64,000 bases of DNA from Pseudanabaena sp. FACHB-1998. GTDB taxonomy: Bacteria > Cyanobacteriota > Cyanobacteriia > Pseudanabaenales > Pseudanabaenaceae. The notes under the pieces were generated by a model, which searched no databases, was not told where the DNA came from, and saw only the letters and a list, made by a program, of their open reading frames with translations. Shown here piece after piece: positions 5,391 to 31,575 of the stretch. The stretch lies in the NCBI RefSeq assembly GCF_014696355.1, contig NZ_JACJQA010000045.1, positions 124,001 through 188,000 of the forward strand, written 5' to 3'. Numbering within the stretch: the stretch's first letter is position 1; every line of letters starts with the position of its first letter. The position numbers and the translations under genes are program-made.

Positions 5391-5453
5391 TCAGCACGAT
5401 CCATAACAAAATGACAACAAAACACTACCAGTATACAAAAGCTTAAGCCCTAA

Positions 5454-5555
5454 TACCAATTCACAAAAGTGTTGCCCCACTTTCGTGGATTAAAAAAACA
5501 AACCCAGCAAGGGTTTTCAAAGCAAGAAATAGCGCAGCCATTTCTTGCTTTGGTG
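5454..5555. repeat. Family 2 MITE-like element, full-length copy
   Basis: A 102-bp element with ends TACCAATT and TTTGGTG. It contains two hairpin modules: CACAAAAGTG..CCACTTTCGTG, and AAGCAAGAAATagcgcagcc ATTTCTTGCTT. They are joined by a linker AAACAAACCCAGCAAGGG. Read on this strand it aligns end to end with the reverse complement of 30757-30857. The second stem differs from that copy by changes on both arms that keep it paired. It lies in the divergent gap between terC and a pentapeptide-repeat gene. Confidence 0.75.
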
Positions 5556-5683
5556 TTAATTAAACATATCGGCGCGAAGCATTAATAATCCTTACTTTTG
5601 TTTTTATTACATTTTGCTGTGTTGTAGGGATAGTTCGTGTGATAACTATTAGTAAGGGATTGCTAAAATTTAGGTACTTTCTC

Positions 5684-28184: not shown

Positions 28185-29147
28185 TTAGTTTGCTTCAATT
28201 GGAGATCGCTTATTGCTTGACGCATTCCGATTTCGCCACCATGCCAACAGAATACTGGCATTAAAAATGCTGGAATACGCGCCAGACAAGAAGCCAATAA
28301 TTAAAGCAAGGGAGAAAAATCGGAGGGTTGCGCCACCAAATAAGAAAATGGCAAGCAATGGCAAGGTTGCCGTCAGAGAAGTATTAATTGATCGCCCCAA
28401 GGTTTGATTAACCGAAGCATTGACTAAATCATTAAATCCCGTTGCACCCGCATCGAGCTTTACATTCTCGCGAATGCGATCATAGATGACCACCGTGTCA
28501 TTAACCGAAAATCCGCAGATAGTCAGCATTGACACAATAAACAAACTATCAATCTCTACACCCATCGTTAGCCCTAAGAGGGAAAAGGCTCCAACTGTAA
28601 CTAAGATGTCGTGAAACAAAGCAATAATTGCGAAGGTTGCATAATCTAGTTGAAAGCGAAAGGCTAAGTAAAGACCAATCCCTGCAAAGGATAAAGCGAT
28701 CGCTAGCAAACCATTTTTCAAAGCCTGCTGACCAATTGACGGACCCACTTCATCAATTTGCGATTTCTTGGGATCTACCTCTCCATATTGTTTGAGAGAA
28801 TCGGTAAGAGTTACCTTTAACTTTTCGCGTTCTTCCGTCGATAAATGAGCCGTGCGTACTGATACACCCTTAAGATCTTTGCCTTCCACTAATTGAATGA
28901 CACTATTAGTAAAGCCTTTGCTCTCTACGGCTTGGCGCACTACGCTAATGTCAATGGGCTTGCCACAATTGCCACCACTGCAAGCTAAACCAAGGGTCAC
29001 ACTTGAGCCGCCAGTAAAATCAATACCTAAACGTAATGGGGAGCCTAACTGCTGAAAGGACAAGACCATAGCCACGATTCCCGCCAAAATGACTGACGTT
29101 GAAATCGTGATGTAAAGACGCGCATTTTTGATTACATCTAATCTCAT
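28185..29147 (-). CDS. secF: Protein translocase subunit SecF
   Basis: SecF works with SecD to pull proteins through SecYEG using the proton gradient. The 320-residue protein has the family features LGIDFTGGSSVTLGL near residues 38-52, a six-helix membrane core, and ICGFSVNDTVVIYDRIRENV near 208-227. It overlaps secD by 4 bp, and the pair is in the standard D-F order. The length is normal. Confidence 0.96.
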   Translation of the reverse strand: MRLDVIKNARLYITISTSVILAGIVAMVLSFQQLGSPLRLGIDFTGGSSVTLGLACSGGNCGKPIDISVVRQAVESKGFTNSVIQLVEGKDLKGVSVRTAHLSTEEREKLKVTLTDSLKQYGEVDPKKSQIDEVGPSIGQQALKNGLLAIALSFAGIGLYLAFRFQLDYATFAIIALFHDILVTVGAFSLLGLTMGVEIDSLFIVSMLTICGFSVNDTVVIYDRIRENVKLDAGATGFNDLVNASVNQTLGRSINTSLTATLPLLAIFLFGGATLRFFSLALIIGFLSGAYSSIFNASILLAWWRNRNASSNKRSPIEAN

Positions 29148-30628
29148 AGAACCGCACCAGTTGTATTGTCTTTTTTCGTACTTTGCCCTTGATCTTCGGT
29201 ATCTGCACTTACATCTACGTTTACCGAGGAGATTTTGCCAAAAGCTTTCATCCCATAGTATTCAGGCTTGCGGAAATTAGGATTGCTAATCATGGCAAGC
29301 ATAAGCGATCGGCTTAGTGTAATTGCCGTGAACATACTCACGATAACGCCCACTCCGAGGGTAACCGCAAATCCTTTGACAAAGCCTGAACCTAGCCAAA
29401 ACAGCGTAATACAAGCAATCAGGGTAGTCACATTACTATCGAGAATGCTTGACCAAGCGCGATAAAATCCCGCTTCTACGGATTTATAAAGAGTGCGACC
29501 CGCTTTTAACTCTTCCTTAGTCCGCTCAAAAATCAGCACGTTCGCATCAACCGCCATACCAATACTGAGGATGAAGCCTGCAATCCCGGGGAGGGTCAAC
29601 ACTACGCCTAATAAGCTAAAGGAAGCAAAGGTGATCACCGCATAGGTAATGAGGGCAATATCGGCAACTGCTCCCAAAATACGGTAGTACAGCACCATAA
29701 AGATCAAAACCAGTAATAGTCCCGATACACCTGCATAGATGCTGCTGAGAATACTATCTGCGCCAAGGGTTGCGCCCACAGTCCGATTTTCGACGATTTC
29801 TACGGGGACTGGTAAAGCTCCTGCACGCAGTTGTAGGGCTAATTCGTTAGCTGTATCAAGGGTAAAGTTACCAGTGATCACGGCTCGACCGCCTGTAATG
29901 CCCTTTCCTTGAAATTCGGGGCCAACGGTGGGGGAACTGATCAATTTATCATCCAAGAAAATGCCTAAGACTCGACCCGTACCACCAATTTCGCCTGTAG
30001 TTTTGGCAAACAAGTCACCACCTTTGTCATCAAAGGTGAGGGCAACTTGCCATGAATCGGGACCGTTACCCGGAGGAGATGCTACAGCGTCTTTCAGCAT
30101 ATTGCCTGTAAAGCCTGTGCGCTCAAAAATACCTTTGAGATCTTCCGTAGCTTTTTTATACTCAACTTCATTGTCAGCGATCGCCTTTTGATCACCCGAA
30201 GTCTTAAGAGCTTCACGCTGAATAGTCGTGGCTTGCAAAATTTGTAATCTTGCCCTTAGCTCGCCTTCAGTACCTTTCTTTTGTTTACGAAAATCAAGTT
30301 GAGCCGTTGTGCCAATTACCCGTTCGGCTTGAGCAGGGTCATTGACCCCCGGTAATTGAACGACTAATTGATTATTTCCTGCAATCAAAATTGTGGCTTC
30401 AGAAACGCCTAATCCATTAATACGCTGCTCCACCACAAATTTGGCGGTTTCCATAATGCGCGGCGTAATTTCATTAATGCCTTGTTCTGGATTGATTTTT
30501 GCCTGAAGTGTAAGCTGTGCACCACCTCGCAAGTCCAACCCTAACTTAGGCGGATTGCTAACGATTAAATACACAGCCCCCAATAAAATTGCCAATACAA
30601 AGGCAAGTAGGCGGCTTTGTTTACCCAT
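29144..30628 (-). CDS. secD: Protein translocase subunit SecD
   Basis: The 494-residue SecD has an N-terminal helix, LGLDLRGGAQLTLQA near residues 29-43, a large outside domain (about 45-290), then the membrane core with SIGMAVDANVLIFERTKEE near 363-381. It ends with a hydrophilic tail rich in Asp, Ser and Lys. It is the first gene of secDF on the minus strand and starts about 115 bp from the nested palindrome region upstream. Confidence 0.96.
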   Translation of the reverse strand: MGKQSRLLAFVLAILLGAVYLIVSNPPKLGLDLRGGAQLTLQAKINPEQGINEITPRIMETAKFVVEQRINGLGVSEATILIAGNNQLVVQLPGVNDPAQAERVIGTTAQLDFRKQKKGTEGELRARLQILQATTIQREALKTSGDQKAIADNEVEYKKATEDLKGIFERTGFTGNMLKDAVASPPGNGPDSWQVALTFDDKGGDLFAKTTGEIGGTGRVLGIFLDDKLISSPTVGPEFQGKGITGGRAVITGNFTLDTANELALQLRAGALPVPVEIVENRTVGATLGADSILSSIYAGVSGLLLVLIFMVLYYRILGAVADIALITYAVITFASFSLLGVVLTLPGIAGFILSIGMAVDANVLIFERTKEELKAGRTLYKSVEAGFYRAWSSILDSNVTTLIACITLFWLGSGFVKGFAVTLGVGVIVSMFTAITLSRSLMLAMISNPNFRKPEYYGMKAFGKISSVNVDVSADTEDQGQSTKKDNTTGAVL

Positions 30629-30743
30629 AATTTTTATAGAGCTTTTTGTATAGCTTTGTTATATAGCTTTACTGGTCGCTAAAGTGAACAGACTGTATTT
30701 TGAGACATCTGACATCATAACTTACTATAGCTACTCGCTTCCC

Positions 30744-30900
30744 ACTCAAGGATTTATACCAAATGAAGAAATGGCTTCGCTATTTCTTCATTTTAAAAAC
30801 CTTACTGGGTTTGGTTTTTAAATCACAAAAGTGTTGCCACACTTTCGTGATTTGGTATTAGCGGTACAGCGATTCGCGCTGTACCGCTAAATCCTTGAGT
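30744..30900. repeat. Palindrome interrupted by a family 2 element
   Basis: The outer arms ACTCAAGGATTTA (30744-30756) and TAAATCCTTGAGT (30888-30900) together with AGCGGTACAGC / GCTGTACCGCT would form one continuous palindrome if the 101-bp segment 30757-30857 and one copy of TTA were removed. This is a palindrome split by an insertion. Confidence 0.85.
30757..30857. mobile_element. Family 2 MITE-like element inserted in a palindrome, with 3-bp TTA duplication
   Basis: The element has ends TACCAAAT and ATTTGGTA and carries the same modules as 5454-5555 in the opposite orientation. TTA stands directly before it (30754-30756) and after it (30858-30860), which looks like a target duplication. 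It has no coding capacity, so it would depend on a transposase from elsewhere. Confidence 0.8.
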
Positions 30901-31278
30901 TTTAATGTGAGGGGGGAAGGAGTAAGTATCTGGGCGCAATTAAGTTAGGGCGATAAGGCTTTTCTAGTTAATTTGACCTATGCCTTTAGGATGAATTTAT
31001 TAACTCATCTTAAAAAAATTTAGTTGATCTATAGCTGCAAATGCTCAGAAAGACCGCTTAACGTAAGGAATTTATAGTTTTATTTGGCGTTTAATAGCCT
31101 CTTTATCATGAGTTGCATGAAGCTTTGTAATACAGCCTACGCAAATTGATGCGGGTAAACGGTAAACTTATATCAAAGCTGAAATTTAGGTTGGATTTGT
31201 GAGATCTTGTGTCGAGCGAGTCTTTTCCGAAGACTGGCTAAATTATTATATCGATCTCTTTTCTGGAGCGAACTGACT
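30901..31278 (+). promoter_or_regulatory. Long upstream region of the RRM gene
   Basis: About 380 bp lie between the nested repeat and the GTG start of the RNA-binding protein gene. No palindrome of the local type falls in it. A ribosome binding site-like GGAG is at 31265-31268. Cyanobacterial rbp genes often have long, cold-responsive leaders; this stretch is where one would be. I cannot point to a promoter with confidence. Confidence 0.4.
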
Positions 31279-31575
31279 GTGACTATTTACGTTGGAAATT
31301 TGTCTTATCAAGCTGCTAAGGAAGATTTGACAAGCGTCTTTTCTGATTACGGCACTGTAAAGCGTGTGCAATTGCCTACTGACCAAGAAACAGGTCGGGT
31401 TCGGGGCTTCGCCTTTGTGGATATGGAGGATGATGCTCAGGAAGAAGCGGCGATCGCAGCTCTTAATGAGGCTGAATGGATGGGACGTACTTTGCGCGTT
31501 AACAAGGCTAAGCCTCGCGGCGAACGTAGTAACGATCGCCCCTCTAGAGGCGGACGTGGTGGTTACGCTAATTAA
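31279..31575 (+). CDS. RNA-binding protein with one RRM domain and a Gly/Arg tail
   Basis: From the GTG at 31279 the product has 98 residues. It is a single RNA recognition motif of the cyanobacterial Rbp type: TIYVGNLSYQA near 2-12 is RNP2 and RGFAFVDMED near 43-52 is RNP1, with the aromatic residues used to stack RNA bases. The tail GERSNDRPSRGGRGGYAN is glycine- and arginine-rich, as in cold-induced Rbp proteins. Reading from farther upstream would add 24 residues without RRM-like sequence; the GTG has GGAG 10 bases before it. Confidence 0.9.
   Translation: MTIYVGNLSYQAAKEDLTSVFSDYGTVKRVQLPTDQETGRVRGFAFVDMEDDAQEEAAIAALNEAEWMGRTLRVNKAKPRGERSNDRPSRGGRGGYAN

Follow-up and report, generated by a model that had tools for sequence, protein, structure and literature searches.

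The spacer upstream of secD very likely holds two small repeats laid down one after the other in the genome that carries the window (the whole stretch of 64,000 nt analysed, on contig C40 of a 4.78-Mb genome). A repeat of family A, mostly 96-98 bp long with a near-perfect internal palindrome, would have arrived upstream of secD in this lineage, and a 101-bp non-autonomous element of another family (family 2) would then have entered a TTA of its left arm, duplicating this triplet. The order of both events follows from one repeat being inside the other. The insertion was most likely performed by a DDE-type transposase acting in trans, which is made likely by the fixed TNA duplication and the inverted ends; which transposase this was, and that family A is itself a transposon, are points that we infer. 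The nesting is a sound and well-resolved case of a known type of event, and its most interesting by-product is a pattern of arm copying. Besides this clean layering of two small repeats, the target duplication is fixed for elements found throughout the genus. Their copies also seem to record copying between hairpin arms and into flanking DNA, and thereby allow template switching to be tested in nature as an origin of palindromes in bacterial spacers.

Table 1. Features of the nested repeats and of their surroundings, in window coordinates
Feature	Position	Strand	Remarks
secD	29144..30628	-	NCBIfam TIGR01129, 418.6 bits against a cut-off of 244.4
TATGAT box upstream of secD	30714..30719	-	12 bp from the host-repeat end; putative promoter
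Host repeat, family A	30732..30924	.	193 bp, or 89 bp minus the element and one TTA; ends TACTCGCTTCCC and GGGAAGGAGTA
Left arm, outer part, severed by the insertion	30744..30756	+	reads ACTCAAGGATTTA; perfect complement of 30888-30900
Left TTA copy of the 3-bp target duplication	30754..30756	+	a case of TNA; one TTA only where orthologues of the L126 site are empty
Inserted family-2 element	30757..30857	.	MITE-like, non-autonomous; 101 bp with TACC/GGTA ends, folding as three adjacent hairpins
Right TTA copy of the 3-bp target duplication	30858..30860	+	matches the left triplet
Left arm, inner part	30861..30871	+	reads GCGGTACAGCG; joined to 30744-30756, gives a 24-bp arm
Host palindrome loop	30872..30876		reads ATTCG
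Right arm, intact	30877..30900	+	reads CGCTGTACCGCTAAATCCTTGAGT; complementary at every letter to the joined left arm
Second family-2 copy in the window (L121)	5450..5560	-	triplets TAA/TTA, non-matching

The initial annotation had stated that excision of 30757-30857 together with one TTA rejoins two perfect arms. This is exactly what is obtained, with arms even longer than claimed, as the removal leaves a perfect palindrome of 24-bp arms around a 5-nt loop. Within it, ACTCAAGGATTTAGCGGTAC has 30881-30900 as its exact reverse complement. The predicted pre-insertion spacer would read ACTCAAGGATTTAGCGGTACAGCG, unbroken and with a single TTA, with ACTCAAGGATTTAGCGG at its junction. When 104 bases were removed at each of 63,776 positions of the window, an exact junction arm of at least 14 bp was restored at six positions. 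Four of them are register shifts of the site upstream of secD (24 bp), the other two reaching 18 and 19 bp, and four equivalent registers at the 24-bp site are what a 3-bp duplication predicts. The probability that a chance inverted repeat happened to lie beside a hairpin is vanishingly small. Palindromes are indeed common in these spacers, where, of 720 TNA sites flanking the family-2 copies, 49 fall within an arm, but a perfect match of 13 bp at a fixed position would occur with a probability near 4^-13, 24 bp are reached at one site only in the window, and the same structure is common to the paralogues of the host.

The host had been described as another palindrome, which undersells it, as the host is a repeat in its own right, dispersed and bounded by inverted ends. 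Of the 26 genomes of the genus, 11 match the predicted pre-insertion sequence, namely the window's own and 10 of the 25 others, and the BLAST matches span the junction. The ends TACTCCCTTCCC and GGGAAGGGAGTA, scored with at most three mismatches per 12-bp end, surround a near-perfect palindrome at nine of 13 loci taken from ten relatives (eight genomes), both ends not being recognized in L136, L139, L140 and L146. In the window's own genome, both ends also occur in L103, L118, L158 and L160. Altogether, 12 uninterrupted copies can be aligned through the junction of the window, of which three belong to this genome and nine to eight other genomes; eight of the 12 measure 96-98 bp and the rest 68-91 bp. 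Against the two-layer reading, the paralogues reach only 75-85% identity with the predicted empty site over long matches, and most of them display a GGATTAG-like sequence where the window reads GGATTTAG, a one-base difference adjoining the junction. The window palindrome includes one additional T beside the junction, mirrored by an additional A in the opposite arm. In favor of this reading, a family-2 element is likewise present within L118, another copy of family A, there with non-matching triplets.

Family A is probably a MITE. Its copies have inverted ends bounded by TA, some of them ending otherwise (e.g., TC in L137), and visual inspection of flanks displays no clear longer duplication. 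The TA-CTCCCT...AGGGAG-TA ends resemble those of Stowaway-like MITEs of the IS630-Tc1/mariner group, a kinship to be taken as a lead only; on this likeness, the TA ends suggest that family A may be an IS630/Tc1-like, Stowaway-like MITE. It is very unlikely that the interrupted palindrome would be a non-mobile REP or terminator native to the secD spacer. The site is intergenic, and palindromes of different sequence stand in the secD spacers of several relatives, which would suit such a native structure. Against it, the palindrome is shared at secD by none of 24 other species, while its two-ended copies are dispersed in this genome and eight others, besides the palindrome matches in 10 of the 25 other genomes.

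The gene downstream of the nested repeats encodes a SecD with 85-90% identity to its counterparts in the eight nearest genomes, mostly Pseudanabaena, the four named Pseudanabaena giving 89-90%, so that the window is assigned to a Pseudanabaena. A search of Rfam with 30600-31300 returned no match at E up to 1, and no ORF of at least 80 aa overlaps 30629-31206. Of 25 secD spacers, the window's own counted, 22 have a TATGAT box within 200 bp and 23 its wider context; the box is a putative promoter element of secD. The host repeat, ending 12 bp from this box, may have displaced upstream promoter sequence. Several relatives include a second, diverged secD-like gene or fragment just upstream of secD (L233-L237; L012, L014), with 58-60% identity in five of them, the window's genome having one secD match only. 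Apparent further nesting is found upstream of secD in L013/L219, where AGCAATTCTCATTA...TAATGAGAATTGCT arms surround two more hairpins.

A comparison of the secD locus in close relatives had been proposed as the test of the insertion, element-free relatives lacking the continuous palindrome being expected to speak against it. Such relatives are literally what was found. In 24 of the 25 other genomes of the genus (G021 giving no secD match), no host repeat was found, at E up to 0.01, within the 700 bp that precede secD, so that none of these 24 species displays the uninterrupted palindrome at the orthologous site, and this stands against the two-layer reading. The host palindrome is most likely missing there as a later arrival in the lineage of the window. 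Given this absence from the orthologous spacers, the comparison is undecisive and the question is decided on the paralogues, which support insertion; the inference is nonetheless sound. A shortened relative of the family-2 element occurs in one of the 24 secD spacers, that of G010 (L216), at a different place.

The inserted element itself folds, as DNA, at -24.8 kcal/mol, against a mean of -7.8 for shuffled sequences (z -8.0), and its inverted ends are 88% complementary over 16 nt. A first search of the genome returned at least 77 matching stretches, partial and self-complementary ones counted, the best 40 of 182 candidates being scored. Together with the window's copy and four more from a later round, the 40 copies of the first rounds make the 45 studied here. 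Family-2 matches are present in all 26 genomes of the genus, two of which display more than 600 first-look candidates. The triplets on both sides of the element are identical in 20 of the 45 copies (11 TTA, 7 TAA, 1 TCA and 1 TGA). TTA on one strand is TAA on the other, and with TCA and TGA considered the duplication is thus TNA; the TTA noticed at both ends is therefore correct for this copy and does not stand as a rule. The other 25 copies carry differing triplets, through decay, rearrangement or imperfect boundary calls, and count against the two-layer reading. The element is thus short (MITEs measure less than about 600 bp) with terminal inverted repeats, non-coding, dispersed in many copies and flanked by a duplication of fixed length, as are MITEs. 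A third repeat family, starting with TATAGCTGT.G.CA.TCTTGTTAGGACA..AAAACC followed by a palindrome, lies inside the family-2 copies L125, L162 and L106, at a roughly constant position near GGTTTTTA.

Direct evidence of transposition is provided by a sister copy. Eleven predicted empty sites were searched across the 26 genomes of the genus. For copy L126, three of them (G018, G005 and G015, 86-90% identity) read through the junction with one TTA where the window's genome reads TTA-element-TTA. As these empty sites carry one TTA in three species, the family-2 element does transpose, and it does so with a TNA duplication. In G016 and G014 (79-81%), the site of L096 occurs without the element, the alignment being less clean at the junction, and one match on contig C4 of G018 (79%) crosses the junction of L127, a copy whose left flank is itself repeated. 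For the remaining eight sites, no clear counterpart appears among the matches listed (the best 13 candidates per genome). The jump of a family-2 element into the arm of a palindrome, as first proposed, is therefore well supported by the restored palindrome, the uninterrupted relatives of the host, the TNA duplications and the empty sites of L126. Copy L106, which lies inside another family-2 copy, supports the two-layer reading as well.

Nesting is ordinary in this genome, and the description of the case as rare has to be abandoned. Indeed, six of the 20 duplication-bearing copies lie inside another repeat of which uninterrupted relatives exist, L165 on weak matches. The relatives that span the junction belong to family A for the window site, to another repeat for L100, to the element's own family for L106, and to a family with an end like TGTCCTAATGCAAGTGACCATAGCTATA for L094, L096 and, more weakly, L165. 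Weaker or one-sided matches of joined flanks were obtained for L093, L098, L108 and L122, the last of which also restores a palindrome with one mismatch; those of L126 are orthologous sites.

An unlikely alternative is that the family-2 element inserts preferentially into palindromes or repeats of other kinds, in the way that REP elements are targeted by some insertion sequences according to excerpts of PMC1525189. A palindrome is restored in two of the 20 duplication-bearing copies, against 12 of 1500 TNA sites sampled across the window, coding ones included (Fisher P 0.014), which together with the six copies within other repeats would favor such a preference. When the same two copies are compared with the other TNA sites that flank the 45 copies (49 of 720), P rises to 0.64, so that the excess over the whole window possibly reflects mere insertion into palindrome-rich spacers. 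Moreover, the copies borne by repeats are spread over at least four different repeat types. Palindrome targeting is thus not established.

The duplication of TNA fits the IS5/PIF-Harbinger group, in which it takes the form of a 3-bp TNA/TWA duplication, as in the family-2 element; PIF/Harbinger elements are described as making a 3-bp target duplication. In the loci examined, the element nevertheless shares its ends with no IS5-type transposase gene. No TNA-TACC...GGTA-TNA ends were found at this genome's hits to PF13340 (two), PF01609 (nine) and PF13359 (two, the ends being judged from motif lists), nor at 20 PF13340 loci of relatives (nine searched, hits in seven), a result that counts against the two-layer reading. 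Tourist-like MITEs of the PIF/Harbinger-IS5 group are alike in their 3-bp TNA-type duplication, short inverted ends and likely mobilization in trans, but the TACC/GGTA ends match no transposase locus examined; membership of the family-2 element in this group is not claimed. An IS5-like insertion sequence with long inverted ends AGAACCCATTTGGTANCTTAGGAAG occurs in two genomes (L147, L240). It was considered as a partner since these ends contain CATTTGGTA, which stands there in the opposite sense; the resemblance was judged a coincidence.

In the open-licence literature searched, nothing was found that pairs Pseudanabaena with miniature inverted repeats or describes the family-2 element, nor, beyond a plant review, anything on nested MITEs with REP. 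Very small mobile repeats are reportedly the subject of Elhai et al. in 2008 (small dispersed repeats of cyanobacteria) and of Zhou et al. in 2008 (the Nezha MITE of cyanobacteria), both likened here by title. A sample group from Anabaena sp. 90 has three sets of inverted repeats, the elements without a matching insertion sequence being called type II MITEs there, according to excerpts of PMC3542288. Like the family-2 element, these type II MITEs are small, carry three inverted-repeat sets in the sample group, occur in many copies, mostly intergenic, and have no insertion sequence with similar ends; the host is nostocalean and the likeness is one of description, not of sequence (PMC3542288, same excerpts). 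As for nesting, the pneumococcal BOX, RUP and SPRITE repeats are described in parts of PMC3049150 as small repeats inserted into each other, the inner repeat being likewise recognized by joining the flanks, but they belong to Streptococcus and are compared by description.

Arm copying probably occurs in this genome. Over the 45 family-2 copies, with L110 moved by one base for a deletion, the arms of hairpin 1 display 29 mismatches against a mean of 99.6 with right arms shuffled (lowest 78; none of 5000 shuffles reaching 29), a contrast which, like the next ones for hairpin 3 and family A, is inflated by related copies. For hairpin 3, the mismatches number 101 against 152.1 in all 45 copies, and 73 against 100.1 in the 42 aligning copies (L125, L129 and L162 left out). 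Likewise, in 16 family-A palindromes, leaving out L118 (rearranged) and L139 and L141 (arm deleted), the edit distance between the arms of a copy amounts to 35 against 82.4 after shuffling, none of 3000 shuffles being as low. The stem of hairpin 1 also runs 5-9 bp past the element end into the flank in five of the 45 copies (L118, L111, L123, L112 and L109), whereas 2000 flank shuffles gave 0.19 such copies on average and never more than three; extended stems of this kind are expected from template switching. As the target triplets still match in L123 and L109, the element seems in these two to have received a copy of the flank. Selection for structure can explain the covariation, but not easily the stems reaching into the flanks.

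Arm copying could also account for the site upstream of secD with no transposition at all, if template switching or gene conversion between the arms had rebuilt the outer flank from the right arm with the element already present. The strong covariation and the stems extended into the flanks make such copying probable in this genome, but the rebuilding would need to stop exactly at the TNA duplication known elsewhere in family 2, and to recreate the rest of family A up to the inverted end shared with its paralogues, which renders this explanation extremely unlikely. Insertion of the element into a family-A repeat thus remains the preferred reading.

Template switching between inverted repeats predicts homogenized arms and inverted loops, as described in excerpts of PMC8794818 and PMC8604942. 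The quasipalindrome mutations reported in these excerpts resemble the pattern found here in their homogenized arms, paired substitutions and loop inversion, and differ in that the latter is borne by mobile repeats and includes stems running into the flank. Tentatively, and with less than even likelihood, the terminal hairpin might seed new palindromes, the nascent strand folding back on it during replication and copying beyond the element, across the target duplication and on into host DNA, so that flank would be inverted into the element or the reverse. If so, insertions would grow into ever longer unique palindromes, kept perfect by arm copying, and might help to account for the many one-off palindromes that Pseudanabaena spacers contain.

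Upstream of secD, G016, G012 and G019 have another palindrome, set between common flanks (L212, L213 and L221). It is perfect in each of these genomes while differing between them by paired substitutions, its loop reading GAA in one of them and TTC in the others. It agrees with the arm-copying tests, even though related copies inflate them. In G020 (L211), the left arm of this palindrome is partly missing.
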